Origin: Cyanobium sp. PLM2.Bin73 | GTDB lineage: Bacteria > Cyanobacteriota > Cyanobacteriia > PCC-6307 > Cyanobiaceae | Assembly: GCA_007694915.1 (NCBI GenBank) | Contig: REEV01000049.1 | Span: 1 to 56,156, forward strand | Reading direction: 5' to 3' | Length of the DNA: 56,156 nt | In this document: piece by piece, positions 12,865-54,823 of the stretch | Layout of the letters: each line of letters starts with the position of its first letter | Numbering within the stretch: the first letter of the stretch is position 1 | Notes under the pieces: generated by a model | The model's input: the letters and a program-made list of their open reading frames with translations, nothing else | Database searches by the model: none | What the model was told of the DNA's origin: nothing | Made by a program: the position numbers and the translations under genes

Positions 12865-13716
12865 GTGTTCCGCAACGTTCTGATCGCCGATTCCGGCAAA
12901 GGCCACGTAGAGGAGATGGTGCGCATGCTGCGCGACATCCCCGTGGTACGGCAGGCACGCCTCAATCTCCTGCATGTGGTGCCGGAGCAGGCGGGGGAGG
13001 ATTTCCAGCAGCACTGGCAGCAGGCAGCCGGACTGGTGGCCGATGCGGTGAGCCGCCTGCAACTCAATCCCAGCGAGGTGAACACGATCATTCGTCAGGG
13101 CGACACCAAGCAGACGGTGCTGCAGGTGGCCGACGAGCTCAATGCCGATCTGATCGTGATGGGGTCGCGGGGTCTCAACCGGATTCAGTCGATCCTCGGC
13201 AACAGCGCCAGCCAATACGTGTTCCAGCTCTCCACCCGGCCGATGCTGCTGGTGCGCGACGACCTCTACGTGCGCCACATCAACCGGGTGATGGTGACGG
13301 TGGATGGCACCGGGGTTGGCGATGACGCCCTGCGCCTGGCCGCCGATCTGGTGCGCGAGATCCCAGGCGGCAGCCTCACCGGCGTGCACGTGACCCGCCA
13401 GGACATCACCCCATCCCGCGGCGGCCGCTCACCGGCCGACGCGGTGCTGGACAAGGCCGTGCAGAAGGCCCGCACCTATGGGGTGAGCCTCAAGCCGCTG
13501 CACCGCACTGGCCCCGACATCGGCCGCACCGTGTGCGCCGCCGCCGAGGAAATCAACGCCGACCTGCTGGTGATCGCCTCCCAGGACAGGCGGCCCGTGG
13601 TGGCCAAGGCCCTGGTGGATCTGGATCGGCTGCTTGGCAGCTCGGTGAGCGATTACATCCGCGTGCACGCGCCGGCCCCGGTGCTGCTGGTGCGTGAACC
13701 TGAGGGGCGCAGCTGA
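12865..13716 (+). CDS. Tandem universal stress protein (two UspA domains)
   Basis: 283 residues with two UspA domains (about 1-135 and 138-275). The first has the ATP-binding signature IVMGSRGLNRIQSILGNSAS (G-x2-G-x9-G-S type). The second (LLVIASQDRRPVVAKALVDL) lacks the glycine pattern and is probably degenerate. Family members are cytosolic stress-response ATP-binding proteins; the specific role is unknown. Start GTG 12865 gives the normal FRNVLIADSGKG opening. The stop lies in a 13-bp-period direct repeat. Confidence 0.85.
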   Translation: MFRNVLIADSGKGHVEEMVRMLRDIPVVRQARLNLLHVVPEQAGEDFQQHWQQAAGLVADAVSRLQLNPSEVNTIIRQGDTKQTVLQVADELNADLIVMGSRGLNRIQSILGNSASQYVFQLSTRPMLLVRDDLYVRHINRVMVTVDGTGVGDDALRLAADLVREIPGGSLTGVHVTRQDITPSRGGRSPADAVLDKAVQKARTYGVSLKPLHRTGPDIGRTVCAAAEEINADLLVIASQDRRPVVAKALVDLDRLLGSSVSDYIRVHAPAPVLLVREPEGRS

Positions 13717-13750
13717 GGGGCCGAGCCTTCCTCAGCGCGGCTTCCTCAGC
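13700..13750. repeat. Short direct repeats around the universal stress protein stop codon
   Basis: CTGAGGGGC occurs at 13700-13708 and 13713-13721 (13-bp period); the TGA of the second copy is the stop codon. Just downstream CTTCCTCAGC occurs at 13727-13736 and 13741-13750 (14-bp period). Together they fill most of the gap towards psbM. Confidence 0.7.
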
Positions 13751-13793
13751 AAGCCTTCTGCAGCGACAAAGGAGGCTGCTCAGCCCTCTTGCC

Positions 13794-23097: not shown

Positions 23098-23700
23098 ATG
23101 GACAGCTCCCTGAGCCGGCTGGTGCAGCTGCTGAGCGCCGGATTCAGCAACCAGCAGCAGGCCTTCGAGAACCCCCCGCTCTACGCCCACATCCTGGTGA
23201 AGATGAGGCCCCTGCCCCAGCTGGCGCCGGGCTCGCTGCTGCTGGAGCAGAGTTACGCCATTAACCCGGCTGCTCCCTACCGGATTCGGGTGTTGCGTCC
23301 GGAACGCCAGGGCGACGGCCTGGTGATCCACAACCAGGCGGTGATTGATGAGCAGCGCTTCTGGGGTGCGGTGGATGATGCCGAACGCCGCAGCCGGATC
23401 CAGCCCCAGGATCTGCGCCCCCTGGACGGCTGCACCTACCGGGTGCGGGAAGACGGTGAGGGGTTCATCGGCGAAGTGGAGCCCGGTTGCCGCTGCCTGG
23501 TGGAGCGCAAGGGTGCCACCACCTACCTGGTGAGCCGGCTGGAGCTGGATGCCCATGGCATGCGCACCATCGACACGGGCCATGACCCCACCACCCACGA
23601 ACAGGTGTGGGGGTCGCTGGCCGGGCCCTTCGAATTCAGCCGCACCGACGATTACAGCGGGGAGATTCCCGCCGCCTGGCAGGCCGCCTTCAGCCCGTGA
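23098..23700 (+). CDS. CpcT/CpeT-family phycobiliprotein chromophore lyase
   Basis: 200 residues, the normal length of CpcT/CpeT lyases, which attach phycocyanobilin to the second cysteine (Cys153) of the phycocyanin beta subunit. Recognisable pieces are LVQLLSAGFSNQQQAF, ENPPLYAHILVKMRPLP, LDGCTYRVREDGEGF and HEQVWGSLAGPFEFSR. Located just upstream of the phycocyanin operon, whose CpcB carries Cys153, which supports CpcT function. Start ATG 23098. The last 11 nt overlap the convergent coiled-coil gene. Confidence 0.85.
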   Translation: MDSSLSRLVQLLSAGFSNQQQAFENPPLYAHILVKMRPLPQLAPGSLLLEQSYAINPAAPYRIRVLRPERQGDGLVIHNQAVIDEQRFWGAVDDAERRSRIQPQDLRPLDGCTYRVREDGEGFIGEVEPGCRCLVERKGATTYLVSRLELDAHGMRTIDTGHDPTTHEQVWGSLAGPFEFSRTDDYSGEIPAAWQAAFSP

Positions 23701-24145
23701 GGAACCCGCGGTAGTCGCGTGCAGGGCGTGCTGGGGGCTCGGGGCCGGCCTCCAGCTCATCGAGGAAGGGCTGTTCGGGTTCCTCGGGAAACTGTCCGTC
23801 GATGTCGTGAACCCCGGCGGCACGGCCAGCTGGCCCGGCAGGGCTGACAGTGGCTGGCTCGATCCCGGTGAGCAAGCCTTCCACCCGCTTGAGGCGCTCC
23901 TCCGTGTCCTTCAGACGTCCCTGGGCGGCGGCCGCCATGCCCAGGTCCGGTTGTGCGGCCTCGGCCAAATCCTGAAGGTGTCGATCCTGAACCGAGAGCC
24001 GGTCCTCCAGCTCCAGCAGCCGGTAGGTGAGCGTCTCCACCACCTGGGAGAGGGTGTGCAACTGCTGGGCCAGCCGCTGGCTGGCTTCAGGTGCGGGAGG
24101 CGTGGGCAGCCGGAGGGGCGAAGGGGTGGGCGACTGGAGGGACAT
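23690..24145 (-). CDS. Coiled-coil protein of unknown function
   Basis: 151 residues. A Pro-rich start (SPTPSPLRLPTPPAPE) precedes a heptad-like helical region at about residues 20-95 (SQRLAQQLHTLSQVVETL, LLELEDRLSVQDRHLQDL, LKDTEERLKRVEGLL), followed by an acidic, Pro/Glu-rich tail. No enzyme motif. It is divergent from cpcC across a 360-nt region and overlaps the end of the lyase gene, so a link to phycobilisomes is possible by position only. Confidence 0.6.
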   Translation of the reverse strand: MSLQSPTPSPLRLPTPPAPEASQRLAQQLHTLSQVVETLTYRLLELEDRLSVQDRHLQDLAEAAQPDLGMAAAAQGRLKDTEERLKRVEGLLTGIEPATVSPAGPAGRAAGVHDIDGQFPEEPEQPFLDELEAGPEPPARPARDYRGFLTG

Positions 24146-24184
24146 CGCTGGTCACAACCGGCGGTGGGTCAAAGCTGAAGCCAG

Positions 24185-24239
24185 GGTTCCGGAGCAGGGT
24201 TTGCAGAGCAGGGTTTCCAGAGCAGGTTTTCCAGAGCAG
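24185..24239. repeat. Four tandem 13-14 bp repeats upstream of cpcC
   Basis: Units at 24185-24197 (13 bp), 24198-24211, 24212-24225 and 24226-24239 (14 bp each). They share the pattern GGTTTCCAGAGCAG with a few substitutions. The spacing is about 1.3 helical turns per unit, so units face different sides of the helix. Confidence 0.8.
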
Positions 24240-24505: not shown

Positions 24506-25351
24506 ATGACCCTCGCCAACGCGTCCTACCTGGGCATTGAGCGTTTTTCCAACGACCGCCCCAAGGAAAACTGGACCAACGCCTCTGAAAATGACAAGGA
24601 GGTGCTGATGCGTGCTGTCTACCGCCAGGTGCTCGGCAATCAGTATGTGATGAAGAGTGAGCGGCTCGAAGGGCCCGAATCGCTGTTCAGGCGCGGCTAC
24701 CTCAGTGTGCGTGAGTTTGTTCGCCAGGTGGCCAAGAGCGGGCTCTACAAGCAGAAATTCTTCGAGAACTGCAACCCCTACAGGTTCATCGAGCTCAACT
24801 TCAAGCATCTGCTGGGCCGTGCCCCCCAGAACAAGGCCGAGATGCTCGAGCACTTCACCATCCTGCAGGAGCAGGGCTTCGACGCTGAAATCGACTCCTA
24901 CATCGACAGTGCCGAATACCAGGACCGCTTCGGCGAAGAGGTGGTGCCCTTCCTGCATGGTTTTAACTACAACGCCGGCCAGCAGGGACTGCAGTTCTCG
25001 TACATGCTGCAGCTCACCCGCGGGGTGGGCGCTTCGGTTCGGGGCGATCTGCTCAAGACCCAGTCACGCCTGAACCCGGCGGTTCACGCTGAGCAGCCGA
25101 TGGCCGTGGTCAGCCCCAACGCCAAGGGTGCCGTGTTCCGCAAGGTCACCAGCGATGGCGTGACCCGTCAGGGCGTGGGCTCAGGAGAGGAGGGTCGCAC
25201 CTTCCGGGTGGAGATCACCGGTTACAACAACTACAGGCTGCACAAGCGCAGCAACCGCGTCCGCTTCATCCCCTTCAACAAACTGTTGCAGACCCAGCAG
25301 CAGATTCTGCGTGAAGGTGGCCGCATCGCCAGCATCACCCCGGTAAACTGA
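24506..25351 (+). CDS. cpcC: Phycobilisome rod linker polypeptide
   Basis: Linker that joins phycocyanin hexamers in phycobilisome rods. From ATG 24506, 281 residues: an N-terminal PBS-linker domain (about residues 20-155; RAVYRQVLGNQYVMKSERL, FVRQVAKSGLYKQKFFE, IELNFKHLLGRAP) and a C-terminal CpcD-like domain (about 225-280; FRVEITGYNNY, VRFIPFNKLLQTQQQI). The two-domain layout favours CpcC over the rod-core linker CpcG. The last five codons plus the stop are duplicated just beyond the stop. cpcD follows 73 nt later. Confidence 0.9.
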   Translation: MTLANASYLGIERFSNDRPKENWTNASENDKEVLMRAVYRQVLGNQYVMKSERLEGPESLFRRGYLSVREFVRQVAKSGLYKQKFFENCNPYRFIELNFKHLLGRAPQNKAEMLEHFTILQEQGFDAEIDSYIDSAEYQDRFGEEVVPFLHGFNYNAGQQGLQFSYMLQLTRGVGASVRGDLLKTQSRLNPAVHAEQPMAVVSPNAKGAVFRKVTSDGVTRQGVGSGEEGRTFRVEITGYNNYRLHKRSNRVRFIPFNKLLQTQQQILREGGRIASITPVN

Positions 25352-25369
25352 ATCACCCCGGTGAACTGA
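25334..25369. repeat. Tandem duplication of the cpcC stop region
   Basis: Two 18-bp units (25334-25351 and 25352-25369) differing by one base. The first encodes the last residues ITPVN and the TGA stop of cpcC; the second repeats them beyond the stop. Confidence 0.9.
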
Positions 25370-25424
25370 CAACCAGCCGCCCGTTTTCGCTCCCTTTCTT
25401 GCCATCCACTTTGCTTCGTCAGCC

Positions 25425-25691
25425 ATGAAGGTTTCTGCAGGTAGCCGCAGCACCAGCTTCAGCAGCGGTCGTCAGGTCACGTTCACAGTGACCGGCCTGG
25501 CCAACAACGACTATTCGCGCACGGCGGACATGGTGATGAATGTGCCCTACACCCGCATGAACGAAACCATGCGCATGGTGCAGCGCATGGGCGGCAGGAT
25601 CACCGGGGTGGCTGTGAACGGCGGCGATCTGGCCGCCACCAAGGTGGCACCGGCCCGGAAGAAAACCCGCTCGAAGGCCGAGAACAACTGA
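25425..25691 (+). CDS. cpcD: Phycobilisome rod-capping linker
   Basis: 88-residue CpcD-domain protein that caps the distal end of phycocyanin rods. Recognisable elements are GRQVTFTVTGLANNDYSR and MRMVQRMGGRITGVAV; the C-terminus is a basic tail (KVAPARKKTRSKAENN). Follows cpcC and is followed by a strong terminator that separates the linker genes from cpcBA. Confidence 0.93.
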   Translation: MKVSAGSRSTSFSSGRQVTFTVTGLANNDYSRTADMVMNVPYTRMNETMRMVQRMGGRITGVAVNGGDLAATKVAPARKKTRSKAENN

Positions 25692-25994: not shown

Positions 25995-26513
25995 ATGTTC
26001 GACGCCTTCACCAAGGTCGTTGCCCAGGCTGATGCCCGCGGCGAATTCATCAACGCTGGTCAGATCGACGCCCTCGCGGCGATGGTTGCCGACAGCAACA
26101 AGCGGATGGATTCCGTCAACCGCATCACCTCCAACGCCTCCGCCATCGTCACCAACGCGGCCCGCGATCTGTTCGAGGCCCAGCCCGCCCTGATCGCTCC
26201 CGGTGGCAACGCCTACACCCATCGCCGCATGGCCGCCTGCCTGCGCGACATGGAGATCATCCTCCGCTACGTCACCTACGCCGTCTTCACCGGCGACGCC
26301 TCCGTGCTGGAAGACCGCTGCCTCAACGGCCTGCGTGAGACCTACCTGGCCCTCGGCGTCCCCGGCGCTTCCGTGGCTGAAGGCGTGCGCAAGATGAAGG
26401 ACGCCGCCATCTCCATCGCCAACGATCGCAACGGCATCACCCCCGGCGACTGCTCCGCTCTGATGAGCGAGATCGGCACCTACTTCGATCGCGCCGCAGC
26501 TGCTGTCGGCTGA
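25995..26513 (+). CDS. cpcB: C-phycocyanin beta subunit
   Basis: 172 residues. Chromophore cysteines are at 82 (in [18 protein letters not shown]) and 153 (in [15 protein letters not shown]), both occupied by phycocyanobilin in phycocyanin. Asn72 (in the GGNAYTHRR context) is the usual methylation site. First gene of cpcBA with a strong AAAGGAG ribosome binding site 8 nt before the ATG. Confidence 0.98.
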
Positions 26514-26567: not shown

Positions 26568-27056
26568 ATGAAGACCCCCCTCACCGAAGCCGTCGCCGCT
26601 GCCGATTCCCAGGGCCGCTTCCTCTCCAACACTGAGCTCAACGCCGCCTTCGGTCGTTTCGAGCGCGCCAAGAACGCCCTCGAGGCCGCCAAGGTGCTCA
26701 CCGCCAAGGCTGATGAGCTCGTGAACGGTGCTGCCCAGGCCGTTTACAACAAGTTCCCCTACACCACCCAGATGCAGGGGTCCAACTACGCCTCCGACGC
26801 CCGCGGTAAGGCCAAGTGCGCCCGGGACATCGGCTACTACCTGCGCATGGTCACCTACTGCCTGGTGGCTGGCGGCACCGGCCCCATGGACGAGTACCTC
26901 GTGGCTGGTCTCGATGAGATCAACCGCGCCTTCGAACTCTCCCCCTCCTGGTACGTCGAGGCCCTCAACTACATCAAGGCCAACCACGGCATCTCCGGAG
27001 ACCCCGGTGTGATCGCCAACAACTACATCGACTACGCCATCTCCGCTCTCGTCTGA
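26568..27056 (+). CDS. cpcA: C-phycocyanin alpha subunit
   Basis: 162 residues. Single chromophore cysteine at position 84 ([20 protein letters not shown]), the site served by the CpcE/CpcF lyase encoded just downstream. Start [19 protein letters not shown] is diagnostic. It lies 54 nt after cpcB and is followed by a terminator. Confidence 0.98.
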
Positions 27057-33636: not shown

Positions 33637-33658
33637 GCCTGGGGCAGCGGTTCAGGAG
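33630..33658. repeat. Inverted repeat containing both convergent stop codons
   Basis: CTCCTGA (33630-33636) and TCAGGAG (33652-33658), extended inward by two G-C pairs and one wobble to a 10-bp stem with a 9-nt loop. The TGA of the hypothetical protein and the TCA (minus-strand TGA) of the aldo/keto reductase are in opposite arms. No U tract, so a bidirectional terminator is uncertain. Confidence 0.6.
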
Positions 33659-34677
33659 CTCTGGAATGGGTTGGCGGGCATGCGCCGGTTCAGGTCCAGG
33701 GCCAGGGCATCCAGCTGATGGCGCTGCTCGGCCCTGAGCTGCCAGGCCAGGGCGCCCGCCGCCTGCTCGGCCTGGGCAGGCGTGCGCAACCCCACGATCG
33801 GCAGGGCCCCGTGGGCCCGGCACCAGTTCAGGGCCACCGCCGCCAGCGGGGCTCCGTGGGGTTCGGCGATGGCGGCCATGCAGCGGCGCAGGGGCCCCAG
33901 CTGGGGTTCGAGGCGAGCGAAGAGCGCCCCCCGGGGGCCCCGGGGCCGCGGTTCGCCATCCCCGTCGGGGCGGCCCAGCAGCCCCAGGGCGAGGGGGCTG
34001 TAAGCGATCAGGTCGATGCCCAGCTCGCGGCACAGCGCCGCCAGCCCTCCCGGCGCCGCCAGCCCTCCCGGAAGGATGGGCTCGGGAGAGAGCAGCGAGA
34101 GCTGCACCTGCAGGCTGGTGAGCCGCACTCCCCGCTCAGCGAGGCGGGCCTGCACCTGCCGCAGCCGCCGGGGCCCCATGTTGGAGACACCCAGCTCGGC
34201 CACCTCGCCGGCCTGCACCAGATCGGCCAGCCCATCGAGCAGGGGGTCCTCCTGCCAGGGGGCGTAGCGGGCCGTGCTCCAGTGCAGCTGCACCCGCTGC
34301 AGATGGCCCTCCAGGCGGCGGCGCGAGGCCTGAAAGGCCCGGCGCAGCCCGCCCCGGCCCAGCCGCCAGGGGAAGGGAGCCAGTTTGGTGGCCACCTGCA
34401 CACGCGCCTGCAGGTCGGCGGGCAGGCCGGCGCAGAACCGTCCCAGCAGGGCCTCACTGCGGCCAGTCCAGCGGCCGGTGCCATAGGAATCGGCCGTGTC
34501 CACAAAGCCCAGCCCCAGCTCCACCGCCCGGCGGAAGGTGCGCTCCAGCAGGCCATCCTGGGCCGGGTCATAGCCCCAGAGAAAGCGGTTGCCCCAGGCC
34601 CAGGTGCCCATGCCGATCCCGGGCGGCGGCCCGGGGGAGGGCGTGATCTCGAGCGGTGCGGCTGGAGGATCGGCCAT
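33652..34677 (-). CDS. Aldo/keto reductase
   Basis: 341-residue NADPH-dependent oxidoreductase with a TIM barrel. Family residues: Asp/Tyr in VDTADSYGTG, catalytic Lys in VATKLAPF, His (or its position) in VQLHWSTAR, then VSNMGPRRLRQ, IAYSPLALGLL and NWCRAHGALPIVGLRTPAQ for the cofactor. Start ATG 34677 is supported by the MADPPAAPLEITPS opening. Codons near 34035-34070 contain a perfect 18-bp tandem duplication (PGGLAA twice). Substrate unknown. Confidence 0.9.
   Translation of the reverse strand: MADPPAAPLEITPSPGPPPGIGMGTWAWGNRFLWGYDPAQDGLLERTFRRAVELGLGFVDTADSYGTGRWTGRSEALLGRFCAGLPADLQARVQVATKLAPFPWRLGRGGLRRAFQASRRRLEGHLQRVQLHWSTARYAPWQEDPLLDGLADLVQAGEVAELGVSNMGPRRLRQVQARLAERGVRLTSLQVQLSLLSPEPILPGGLAAPGGLAALCRELGIDLIAYSPLALGLLGRPDGDGEPRPRGPRGALFARLEPQLGPLRRCMAAIAEPHGAPLAAVALNWCRAHGALPIVGLRTPAQAEQAAGALAWQLRAEQRHQLDALALDLNRRMPANPFQSS
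34035..34070. repeat. Perfect 18-bp tandem duplication inside the aldo/keto reductase
   Basis: Two identical 18-bp units, 34035-34052 and 34053-34070, in frame, encoding PGGLAA twice (minus strand). A slippage-type duplication within a coding region. Confidence 0.92.
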
Positions 34678-34711
34678 CGTGAGCAGAACGACCCGCAGCG
34701 CCAGTTCCACT

Positions 34712-34915
34712 ATGGGTGAGATCACCCCAGCACCCTCGCCACGCAGCCCTGCCGGCACCGTTGACACCCCCTCCCCCACTGCCAAGCGTTGCTCGAGCCC
34801 CCCAGCCCCTTCAGACAAGCCCGCGGCCGAGCCGGTGCTCTGCCGACACTGCGGACGCACGGCCAGCAACGGCATCAGCTGCCAGGGGTTCTGCGTGGCC
34901 GACTCGAACTACTGA
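34712..34915 (+). CDS. Small Cys-rich protein of unknown function
   Basis: 67 residues. A Pro/Ser/Thr-rich first half is followed by a conserved-looking C-terminus with four cysteines (LCRHCGRTASNGISCQGFCVADSNY): a C-x2-C and a C-x3-C pair that could bind metal. I believe similar short proteins occur in other cyanobacteria but the role is unknown. Starts 34 nt from the divergent aldo/keto reductase. Its TGA overlaps the CTG proposed as start of the next gene. Confidence 0.6.
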   Translation: MGEITPAPSPRSPAGTVDTPSPTAKRCSSPPAPSDKPAAEPVLCRHCGRTASNGISCQGFCVADSNY

Positions 34916-35433
34916 CCTGGGGAACTGCGGGCGCTCTGGCCGGCGCCCTGGCCTTGGTGCCCGGCCCCGCCGCCCTGGCGGTGCCGGGCCTGACGGCGCC
35001 TGGGGCGGCCAGGGATTTCGGGCGCTGGCAAACCCGCACCAGCCAGTGCAGCTGGCAGCGGGCCCCGTCCCGCCTGCGCCAGCCCTGCCGGGGTCTGCGG
35101 CTGGAGCAGAACCTGGAGGGATTTCTGAACGTGCGCTTCCTGGCGGATGGCCAGGGGGAGTCGATTGCCCTCGAGCAGCTGGTGTTCGCCGGTGCCCTGG
35201 AATCCAACCAAGGGGCGATGCGCTGCAGCGGCGATGGCAGCTGCACCCCCCAGTGGCCGGCCCGGCTGGTGGTGGCCACCGTGGCCGATGCCAGCTTCGA
35301 TCCACGGGGCCTGGCCATGGGACTCCCCCGCACCCATCTGGCGAGCGGCCACTGTGCGTTGGAGCGCCGGCGAGTGGTGTGTGAGGCCCGCGGTCAGCGA
35401 GGGGCCATCTGGATCGCCGAGGCCGAGCTCTGA
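34912..35433 (+). CDS. Probable exported protein of unknown function (CTG start proposed)
   Basis: The frame from CTG 34912 encodes about 173 residues: a signal peptide (LTWGTAGALAGALALVPG, then PAALA as cleavage site) and a mature domain with paired cysteines (TSQCSWQRAPSRLRQPCRGL; MRCSGDGSCTPQW; GHCALERRRVVC), probably a disulfide-bonded exported protein. There is no ATG, GTG or TTG between the far-upstream TTG 34789 and the signal peptide; CTG 34912 overlaps the preceding stop as CTGA. Function not recognised. Confidence 0.6.
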   Translation: MTWGTAGALAGALALVPGPAALAVPGLTAPGAARDFGRWQTRTSQCSWQRAPSRLRQPCRGLRLEQNLEGFLNVRFLADGQGESIALEQLVFAGALESNQGAMRCSGDGSCTPQWPARLVVATVADASFDPRGLAMGLPRTHLASGHCALERRRVVCEARGQRGAIWIAEAEL

Positions 35434-35451
35434 GGTCGGGATCTGAGGTCG
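35429..35451. repeat. Direct repeat spanning the stop of the exported protein
   Basis: TCTGAGGTCG at 35429-35438 and again at 35442-35451 (13-bp period). The first copy carries the TGA stop codon; the second repeats it. Confidence 0.85.
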
Positions 35452-37905: not shown

Positions 37906-38457
37906 ATGGCCACCACCGGCTCCACCCTGCTGCTCACCCTGCTGCTGGCCATCGGGCTGGTGTTCTTCCTGCGCGCCGCCAGCAAGGACCGCTCCACCAC
38001 GGTGGAGGTGCGCAGCTCCAGACCCGCCCTGGAGGTGTTGAGCGCCCTCAGCACCTGGCTGGAGGCACGGGGCTATCAGCCGCAGGCCACCGACCCCGAA
38101 CGCCGCAGCCTCCTCTACCGCGGTCAGGTCAGCTCCAGCCCGCTGCTGGCTGTGCTGCTCTCCCTGCTGGGTGGGCTGGGAGCGGGGTGTCTGGGGCTGG
38201 TGTGGCACCAGTTGCTGCCCGCTCTGGGCTGGTGGCCGCTGCTGCTGGCCCTGCTCGGGCCCCTGGCCGGCCTCCTCTACCAGCGCCGCGCCGCCCGCGA
38301 CGAAACCGTGGAGCTCCGCCTGATCAGCCACGACCAGGCCACCGGCAGCGCCCTCAAGCTGCGGGCCCACCGCGATGAGCTGATTGCCCTGGAACAGGAG
38401 CTTGGGGCCAAACTGGGGCTCTACAGCGACACCAACCTGATCAGTTCTCCCATCTGA
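37906..38457 (+). CDS. Probable cofactor-assembly factor of cytochrome b6f (CCB type)
   Basis: 183 residues: an N-terminal membrane helix (LLLTLLLAIGLVFFLRA), a soluble stretch (VEVRSSRPALEVLSALSTWL) and two further helices (around residues 87-105 and 112-126; LLSLLGGLGAGCLGLVW, WWPLLLALLGPLAGLLY), ending in a polar tail. This resembles the CCB1/CCB2-type proteins that attach haem c-n to cytochrome b6. Assignment by architecture and resemblance only. The 3' end, including the stop, is duplicated. Confidence 0.65.
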   Translation: MATTGSTLLLTLLLAIGLVFFLRAASKDRSTTVEVRSSRPALEVLSALSTWLEARGYQPQATDPERRSLLYRGQVSSSPLLAVLLSLLGGLGAGCLGLVWHQLLPALGWWPLLLALLGPLAGLLYQRRAARDETVELRLISHDQATGSALKLRAHRDELIALEQELGAKLGLYSDTNLISSPI

Positions 38458-38470
38458 TCAGTTCTCCCAT
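38437..38470. repeat. Tandem duplication at the stop of the CCB-like gene
   Basis: Two identical 17-bp units, 38437-38453 and 38454-38470, with a further CTGA after. The final codons ISSPI and the stop are repeated beyond the true stop at 38455-38457. Confidence 0.93.
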
Positions 38471-38538
38471 CTGAGCCGCCTGCGGGCGTCCAGGCCCTGC
38501 GCCCTCACCACCACACACCCACACCAGCATCTCGGTCC

Positions 38539-45018: not shown

Positions 45019-45918
45019 ATGCTGAACGCAATCCTGCAACGCACCAAAGTGGCCAGGCTGGGATTGGAGCCCCCCTCGCCCCGGCCCCGGCGCCAGGGCC
45101 TGGCGGTGGTGCTGGTGGTGCGCAACGAAGAGCGCCACATCGGCGAATGGGCCCGGTTTCACCGGCTTGCCGGGGTGCGGCAGGTGATCGTCTACGACGA
45201 CGGCAGCAGTGATGGCACCCTTGCCACCTTGGCGGCCGAACTGACGGGCGATCAGCTGCGAGTGATTCCCTGGCGCCAGCGCCTGAGCGATCAGCTGCTG
45301 CGCCGTGAGCTCCACAATCAGGTGCTGGCCTATGCCCACGCTGCGGCGAACTTCGGCGGCGCCTTCCGCTGGATGGCGTTCATCGACGCCGATGAATTCC
45401 TGGTGACGAAGCGCGCCTCCAGCCTCGATGCGGCCCTGGCCCACCTGGGCCCGGATGTGCGCTGCCTGTCGCTGCCGTGGCACATGTTCGGCCGCTGCGG
45501 CCACCAGCAGCCACCGCGTGGGGGCGTGGTGCCCAACTACCGCCTGCGGGCAGCCGATCCGATGGCGGGGGTGAATTTCAAGTGTGTCGTTGACCCCTGC
45601 CATCTCACCGCGGTGCGGGTGCACCGGATGGAGGTGGACCGGGGCACCCTCACCTGGAACGATCGCGGTGAAGCCTGGCCCCTGCGCCGGCGCACCCAGG
45701 CGGCCTTCTACAGCGCCGATCACCTGCAGCTCAACCACTACTACACGCGATCGGGCCAGGAACTGGAGGAGAAGATCCAGCGCGGGCCCAATCTGCGCTC
45801 GAAGGCATCGGCCTACCGCCGCAAGGTGATGCGCACCGTGCAGCAGATCGAACGCCAGGTGGTGAGCGACGATGCCGCCATCCAGTTCCTGGAGCGGATC
45901 GGGGCCACGGCTCTCTGA
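45019..45918 (+). CDS. Glycosyltransferase, GT92/DUF23-like
   Basis: 299 residues, GT-A fold. Nucleotide-sugar signatures: VVLVVRNEERHIGEWARFHR, VIVYDDGSSDGTLATLA and the DxD-type FIDADEFLV. Later conserved residues include LPWHMFGRCGHQQP and LQLNHYYTRSGQELEEKI. No membrane helix. It probably transfers a sugar to a surface polysaccharide or glycoprotein. First gene of the cluster placed after psaD; donor and acceptor unknown. Confidence 0.8.
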   Translation: MLNAILQRTKVARLGLEPPSPRPRRQGLAVVLVVRNEERHIGEWARFHRLAGVRQVIVYDDGSSDGTLATLAAELTGDQLRVIPWRQRLSDQLLRRELHNQVLAYAHAAANFGGAFRWMAFIDADEFLVTKRASSLDAALAHLGPDVRCLSLPWHMFGRCGHQQPPRGGVVPNYRLRAADPMAGVNFKCVVDPCHLTAVRVHRMEVDRGTLTWNDRGEAWPLRRRTQAAFYSADHLQLNHYYTRSGQELEEKIQRGPNLRSKASAYRRKVMRTVQQIERQVVSDDAAIQFLERIGATAL

Positions 45919-45949
45919 GCGGGCGGTCGGCTCAGCGGGCGGCCGGTTC
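45918..45949. repeat. 16-bp tandem repeat between glycosyltransferase and sulfotransferase genes
   Basis: Two 16-bp units (45918-45933 and 45934-45949) with two differences. The sulfotransferase stop (TCA at 45948-45950 on the plus strand) lies at one end of the array, and the glycosyltransferase stop ends at its first base. Confidence 0.85.
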
Positions 45950-46715
45950 AGAACTGGTAGTTGAAGTGCTCGATCTCGCTGCGGTAGAGCCGCCCCACCA
46001 GCCGTTCGAGCTCCGGGGTGTAGTGGCTGCGGTAGCCGCAGGCGCCCCCGGCGGCCGCGGAACGGTGGCCCCCCTTGGAGCGGGGCAGCCAGCCATCCCA
46101 GTCCACGCCGAGGCCCTGGAGGGCAGCGGCCAGGTCGGCCTGGAGGGTCTCAAAGCGCACCACCCGGTCGGCCACCACCTCGTCGTTGATGGTGAGCATC
46201 GGCCAGTTGTCATGGAAGGCCAGGGGCACCACTCCGCCCAGGTCCTGGCCGGCGGCCAGGGCCTGGACGTAGGCCGCGAAGCTGGGCGGACGGCGCAGCC
46301 GCTGGATGCGCCAGAAGTAATCCGACACGGTCTTGTCCCAGGGATTGCGCACCACGGCCAGCTTGCGGTAGTCGCACCACGCGCGGGGGAAGGCCGCCGC
46401 CAAACGCGCTGCAGGGGCGTGGGGTGGTTTACGACCCAGCAGCGGCCGGTAGGCATGGTCGATGGCCCTGGCCACGGCCCGGCCGGCCATCCTGGTGCCC
46501 AGGCCAGCTGCCAGTGTGAGGCTCACAGGGTTGTGACGCCAGGCCTCCCGCAGCACCCGCCGGGTGAGCGGGATGCCTTCGCCGAGGGTCTCCACGATGG
46601 CGCTGATCTGCAGATCGGCCGGACCCAGCAACCGGGCCAGCGACACGCAGATCGAGCTGCCGGCGGCCTTGCGGCAGTGGAGCACGATCAGCCGGTGGCG
46701 GTGGCTGAGGATCAT
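45948..46715 (-). CDS. Sulfotransferase family protein 1
   Basis: 255 residues. The 5'-phosphosulfate loop is RLIVLHCRKAAGSSICVSLA (residues 8-27) and the 3'-phosphate site AVVRNPWDKTVSDYFW lies around residue 120. These are PAPS-dependent enzymes placing sulfate on sugars. Start ATG 46715 overlaps the stop of the neighbouring sulfotransferase gene (ATGA). No signal peptide, so cytosolic or membrane-associated. Acceptor unknown. Confidence 0.85.
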   Translation of the reverse strand: MILSHRHRLIVLHCRKAAGSSICVSLARLLGPADLQISAIVETLGEGIPLTRRVLREAWRHNPVSLTLAAGLGTRMAGRAVARAIDHAYRPLLGRKPPHAPAARLAAAFPRAWCDYRKLAVVRNPWDKTVSDYFWRIQRLRRPPSFAAYVQALAAGQDLGGVVPLAFHDNWPMLTINDEVVADRVVRFETLQADLAAALQGLGVDWDGWLPRSKGGHRSAAAGGACGYRSHYTPELERLVGRLYRSEIEHFNYQF

Positions 46716-54759: not shown

Positions 54760-54771
54760 CGGCACAACGGC

Positions 54772-54823
54772 CTGCCCTACGGGTGGCTGCCCTACGGGGG
54801 CCTGCCTGAAGGGGCTGCCCTGG
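54772..54823. repeat. Degenerate 13-15 bp tandem repeats upstream of recF
   Basis: Units starting CTGCC at 54772, 54787, 54802 and 54815. The first two (CTGCCCTACGGGTGG and CTGCCCTACGGGGGC) are nearly identical; the others are diverged. They fill the gap between tRNA-Arg and recF and could contain the tRNA promoter region. Confidence 0.6.

Follow-up and report, generated by a model that had tools for sequence, protein, structure and literature searches.

The phycobilisome rod linker gene cpcC of Cyanobium sp. PLM2.Bin73 ends in two adjacent copies of an 18-bp unit, and this arrangement is very probably the product of a recent, lineage-specific and effectively neutral small tandem duplication. 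It is an ordinary event, one of many small copying accidents scattered through the genome. "The window" refers hereafter to the whole stretch of DNA that was analysed, an entire contig of 56,156 bp (C81) from a genome of 2.72 Mb in 137 contigs; its relevant features are collected in Table 1.

Pfam finds in the host gene a PBS linker domain and a C-terminal CpcD domain. Its last five codons and stop codon, ATCACCCCGGTAAACTGA, are directly abutted, head-to-tail, by ATCACCCCGGTGAACTGA; the two copies are identical at 17 of 18 positions, the sole difference being a synonymous one (GTA/GTG), and translation runs in frame through both as ITPVN-stop-ITPVN-stop, with a second TGA six codons downstream of the cpcC TGA. 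The sequence-only reading that had drawn attention to this gene end, as two 18-bp units with one difference repeating ITPVN and the stop, was thus correct. With up to 3 mismatches allowed, the unit occurs in the window at these two places only, when shuffles would lead one to expect 0.03; elsewhere in the genome, at up to 2 mismatches, we found one single match, with 1 mismatch, on contig C112, and no dispersed family.

Table 1. Features of the cpcC region and comparable tandem arrays in the window.
Feature	Position	Strand	Evidence or remark
cpcC-type phycobilisome rod linker gene, 281 aa, ending ITPVN-TGA	24506..25351	+	Pfam PBS_linker_poly 1.3e-48, CpcD 2.7e-13
Copy 1 of the 18-bp unit, covering the final five codons and the stop of cpcC, with a GTA codon that is most likely derived	25334..25351	+	GTG/GTC in 28 readable relatives
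Copy 2 of the 18-bp unit, past the cpcC stop, in frame, with GTG; absent from relatives	25352..25369	+	Sequence and comparison with relatives
Rest of the cpcC-cpcD spacer, 55 nt	25370..25424	+	Aligns with the entire spacer, also of 55 nt, in both closest relatives
cpcD-like small linker gene following cpcC in the cluster	25425..25691	+	Pfam CpcD 3.8e-09
Two phycobilisome subunit genes after the cpcD-like gene	25995-26513, 26568-27056		
14-bp array that begins 8 nt downstream of the universal stress protein gene 12865-13716	13724..13758	+	Extra copy absent from G012
18-bp array, in frame, inside the aldo/keto reductase gene 33652-34875	34035..34071	-	Extra copy absent from G012 and G004
13-bp array at the end of ORF 34957-35433 (ORF uncertain)	35424..35449	+	Extra copy absent from G012
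17-bp array (2.2 copies) over the stop of the CCB1-family gene 37906-38457	38437..38474	+	Repeat not present in G004; G012 without coverage there
16-bp array between convergent glycosyltransferase (45019-45918, +) and sulfotransferase-like (45948-46715, -) genes	45918..45951	.	Extra copy absent from G012

We examined 30 cpcC loci, 15 from whole genomes and 15 from records, 28 of which have a recognisable cpcC end; the other two (L172 and L173, relatives at 55-56% identity) have none. These 28 readable ends come from 24 distinct genomes or records, four genomes being represented twice, and the duplication was found in none of them. The nearest relatives by CpcC protein are G012 (99% identical), taken as the MAG Cyanobium sp. 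CSSed165cm_191R1, and G004 (96%), taken as Cyanobium sp. ATX 6A2; the cpcC-cpcD spacer measures 73 nt here against exactly 55 nt in both, and the flanks align on either side of the extra 18 nt. Across the 28 readable relatives, spacer length ranges from 31 to 58 nt, and is therefore not tightly held. A degenerate two-copy pattern (at most 2 mismatches) is present in one of 400 family genomes, namely this one, a count to be read knowing that many of the 400 may be without cpcC: at E 1e-60, no match was obtained for 33 of 79 relatives. There are, then, two directly adjoining copies here and a single one in close relatives, and the alignments show the duplication to be a derived state that arose in this genome's own lineage. 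The variable codon is GTG or GTC in the 28 relatives and never GTA; copy 1 has, therefore, most likely changed since the duplication. The protein end itself is unchanged, as copy 1 finishes ITPVN-TGA like the closest relatives; ITPVN closes CpcC in 21 of the 28 readable relatives, and near variants close it in the other 7.

Other observations were made around cpcC and its homologues. Upstream of the gene, a 14-bp unit in about four copies (24182-24239) is common to this genome, G012 and G004, with point differences; present in both relatives, this array is therefore older than the cpcC duplication. It adjoins a frame (23549-24178) without a Pfam match that is open here and in both of these relatives; in several more distant relatives, its tblastn matches contain stops or are fragmented, and judging from this, it is probably not a gene. 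A second linker gene of the same genome (L002, contig C53) is 67% identical and matches residues 1-223 of the query only, its C-terminal part seeming to differ from that of cpcC. Three further linker-domain matches at 35-39% identity (L003-L005, contig C135, 69066-71135) lie within one 1011-aa open frame, which fits the expectation for the core-membrane linker ApcE. Among the relatives, the cpcC match of L022 (G007) has one internal TAG and stops at residue 259, with a VTPVN end present further on, and is possibly a broken or frameshifted copy. Finally, in the spacers of L019, L169, L170 and L171 (the last being the same genome as L019), a VTPV lies in frame about 12 codons after the conserved VTPVN of cpcC; the similarity, 8 of 12 bases by eye, is perhaps due to chance, perhaps to an old eroded duplication.

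The duplication at cpcC is not isolated. The sequence-only reading had listed similar repeats at the ends of a CCB-like gene, an exported protein gene, a sulfotransferase gene and a stress protein gene, and all of these repeats are real (Table 1), the one of the "exported protein" being probably the 13-bp repeat. Of the host genes, the sulfotransferase-like gene is barely above the Pfam cut-off, and ORF 34957-35433 has no Pfam match and was accepted by our gene caller in one run, a reverse ORF taking its place in a later run. Around another repeat (54769-54806), the stretch is wholly different in sequence and length among this genome, G012 and G004, with conserved flanks.

We compared this genome with G012 over 192,292 aligned bases, a chance overlap plus the window rather than a designed sample, with 4.2% substitutions. 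The alignment contains 220 indels, of which 63 measure 8 nt or more; among these 63 are 18 tandem duplications, 9-18 nt long. Eleven belong to the side of this genome and 7 to that of G012; by location, 10 fall in genes, 4 between genes, 1 at a start and 3 at stops. Tandem indels were counted at a lag identity of at least 0.8, which leaves uncounted seven more intergenic ones (0.71-0.79, all on the G012 side) that may be eroded duplications. The window holds 6 duplications of this genome and 1 of G012, the rest of the alignment 5 and 6, respectively; events spanning a stop codon or beginning at most 5 nt from one make up 4 of the 7 in the window (ORF 34957-35433 counted) and 1 of the 11 outside. 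As the window is richer in own-side duplications, the cluster at gene ends noticed there is partly local chance.

Scanned more widely, 747 kb of this genome (about 27%) contain 76 arrays with periods of 11-45, whereas 3 shuffles gave 2.3 on average. Of the 76, 44 lie inside genes, 21 are intergenic, 10 touch a stop and 1 touches a start. The density is about sixfold higher outside genes or at their edges than inside (3.9 against about 0.7 per 10 kb), and 16 arrays lie fully within 54.5 kb of non-coding DNA, against a mean of 0.4 in 20 dinucleotide shuffles. Per 100 kb (and, in brackets, per 10 kb outside genes or at their edges), arrays number in the genus 10.2 (3.87) for this genome, 10.3 (4.87) for G012, 6.5 (0.94) for G004, 6.0 (2.93) for G006 and 12.8 (7.01) for G010; outside the genus, they number 3.0 (0.83) for G035, 1.0 (0.95) for G036, 2.0 (0.95) for G015, 7.0 (1.55) for G051, 1.3 (0) for S. 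meliloti pSymB, 4.0 (2.75) for the C. metallidurans megaplasmid and 0.8 (0) for E. coli K-12, control samples other than the E. coli pair being of 100-150 kb each. The genus thus appears to be rich in small duplications; the samples are small, and the contrast with other bacteria is not clean, because G051 falls inside the genus range (6.0-12.8), the non-coding count of G004 is no higher than that of most samples from outside the genus, and Cupriavidus comes near G006. In 121 kb of an E. coli pair of equal mean divergence there was 1 tandem duplication, compared with 18 in the 192 kb aligned here; this is a single pair and, minus a 27-kb piece of 87.9% identity, it is less diverged than the pair formed by this genome and G012. 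Its sole duplication lies at the edge of that very piece, beside rpnC by coordinates. The genome-wide tendency to small duplications suggested by the sequence-only reading is therefore borne out as an excess over shuffles and over E. coli, with these reservations on the comparison with other bacteria.

The edges of the repeats bear on how such copies are made. At cpcC, the lag-18 match extends 0 nt beyond the unit on either side, so slippage at a pre-existing direct repeat is rejected there. Such slippage likewise does not account for most of the comparable events: with junction homology measured as the exact continuation of the lag match, five of the 18 have none, nine have 1 nt, and the remaining four have 2, 3, 4 and 13 nt, respectively. 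Classical bacterial end-joining is also unlikely: a Ku gene was matched in 0 of 13 genomes (this one, 8 of the genus, without G012, and 4 more from the class), in a search where only Bacillus subtilis was positive among 14 control genomes. We therefore prefer, as an inferred route, a nascent strand misaligned or re-primed during replication or repair. One such event would have copied the 18 bp holding the last five codons and TGA of cpcC; copy 1 still encodes and ends CpcC unchanged, with copy 2 pushed into the spacer before cpcD, and one synonymous change, GTG to GTA, would then have occurred in copy 1. As the duplicated unit includes the stop codon, the protein stays intact, and the duplication was probably tolerated for this reason; it would have survived as nothing was broken, like similar duplications in non-coding DNA and those inside genes, whose lengths are mostly multiples of three.

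Could the second copy nevertheless serve a purpose? The sequence-only reading had proposed a functional tail, and we considered a form of it in which a fraction of the ribosomes reads through the first TGA and extends the protein by six residues, a second ITPVN included, yielding a longer linker. Copy 2 is indeed in frame, ends in TGA and would encode an identical pentapeptide, the very one that closes CpcC, as such or nearly so, in all readable relatives; yet it is missing from 28 of 28 readable ends and unmatched in 399 of the 400 family genomes. A second proposal, a duplication favoured as an in-frame backup for a leaky TGA in a highly expressed gene, can point to the second TGA. If second copies were translated or served as backup stops, periods that are multiples of three would be expected among arrays spanning stops. 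Selection on frame is expected for arrays inside genes, and there 74 of 89 periods are multiples of three (arrays shared between genomes included), against 7 of 27 gene ends for arrays with a stop in their first copy, three edge cases left out; one array common to this genome and G012 is counted twice, with two gene ends each, and 7 of 25 remain without this repetition. The class has, thus, no frame preference. Moreover, excerpts of Ho and Hurst (2019; PMC6764699) report for eubacteria a paucity, not an enrichment, of additional stops and no compelling evidence of selection; cpcC resembles the fail-safe stops treated there in having a second in-frame stop shortly after the first, and differs from them in that this stop comes from a private duplication, in a class without frame preference. 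Copy 2 carries no non-synonymous change, an observation that does not discriminate, because, at a divergence of about 4% from G012, 18 bp would be expected to hold fewer than one change.

A third proposal would see in the array a cis-acting RNA or DNA element at the cpcC-cpcD junction, or a phase-variable repeat akin to the heptamers of cyanobacteria (TAACTGA and similar), also named STRR. The site does lie between two genes of the phycobilisome cluster, and the unit ends in AACTGA, 6 of the 7 letters of TAACTGA, a heptamer reported in some cyanobacteria according to excerpts of PMC4679880. The cpcC array shares with the repeats described in that source, VNTRs included, short tandem units placed outside genes or at their edge; unlike the heptamers, its unit is of 18 bp and not 7, it has two copies only, and no dispersed family accompanies it at up to 2 mismatches. 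Folding of the junction RNA gives no signal, with z = 0.08, a background level, against 0.20 and -0.21 in the two closest relatives. Taken together, the lack of frame preference, the background folding and the paucity reported in the excerpts of PMC6764699 speak against a functional tail; translational readthrough is hardly credible, a selected backup stop would be just as surprising, and we grant a cis-acting or phase-variable element an equally slight chance. We infer that the cpcC duplication has no function.

An assembly or sequencing artefact is likewise most improbable. The division of the assembly into 137 contigs and the lack of the event in all other genomes searched could raise suspicion, but the two copies differ by one base, an array of 36 bp fits within one read of current short-read technology, and comparable arrays are found elsewhere in the genus, among others in G006, which is assembled as a single contig.

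The position of such arrays relative to stop codons was weighed against chance. We placed the 32 arrays of this genome that are not inside genes randomly among all such positions, using a home-made gene caller for which stops are exact given the right frame and starts approximate; changes in its training shifted a few genes between runs (ORF 34957-35433, and class counts in G004). At stops, 10 arrays were observed against 7.3 expected (P 0.17); at starts, 1 against 6.0 (P for at most 1 array: 0.011 in one run, 0.0095 in another). The samples of other genomes gave at stops 7 against 3.6 for G012 (P 0.048), 4 against 2.8 for G006 (P 0.31), 5 against 6.4 for G010 (P 0.80) and 0 against 0.4 for G004 (77-kb sample). 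Pooling this genome with G006 and G010 yields 19 against 15.9 (P 0.23), and the four-genome pool with G012, identical arrays removed and G004 left out, 25 against 19.3 (P 0.09); at starts, the same pool has fewer arrays than expected, 8 against 16.0 (P 0.014).

The density of arrays is, therefore, much higher outside genes than within them; few lie at starts, and an enrichment at stops is not clear. A hot spot at stop codons, the positions stressed by the sequence-only reading, is not significant under random placement in this genome or in the pool; the slight excess in the pool and the value for G012 alone run counter to neutrality. Its idea that duplications are tolerated at 3' ends finds weak support in the scarcity at starts, whose positions are predicted.

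By keyword search of the open-licence literature, we found no published account of such small duplications in Cyanobium, none of small tandem duplications in bacterial genomes, none of short intergenic duplications with microhomology in bacteria and none joining tandem repeats with stop codons; work retrieved on short insertions, tandem duplications and slippage concerned human rearrangements. Close counterparts are the small tandem duplications of human and other genomes, made, in the excerpts of Schimmel et al. (2021; PMC8355091), by a route that needs Pol alpha-primase, CST, Shieldin and end-joining. The cpcC case is similarly short, head-to-tail and of two copies where relatives have one; it differs in its probable route, as Ku was found in 0 of the 13 genomes and misalignment in replication or repair is more likely here.

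Taken alone, the cpcC duplication matters little, since a neutral accident accounts for an odd-looking gene end. Of slight importance, perhaps, is the wider pattern: low-homology duplications apparently change lengths in these genomes on a regular basis, and selection seems to sift them, leaving multiples of three inside genes and few at starts, with no filter on frame at stops. This provides a simple baseline for anyone inclined to see function in gene-end repeats, and it raises the testable question of which polymerase or repair pathway produces such duplications. What remains of mild interest is the load of duplications of 9-18 nt, almost free of homology, in a lineage without detected Ku. 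We hold it possible, though rather doubtful, that this lineage has an unusually high rate of such de novo duplications with near-zero junction homology and no Ku detected, cpcC then being one instance; if true, this would be a mutational signature of bacteria that recalls the small tandem duplications of eukaryotes but is made by another route.
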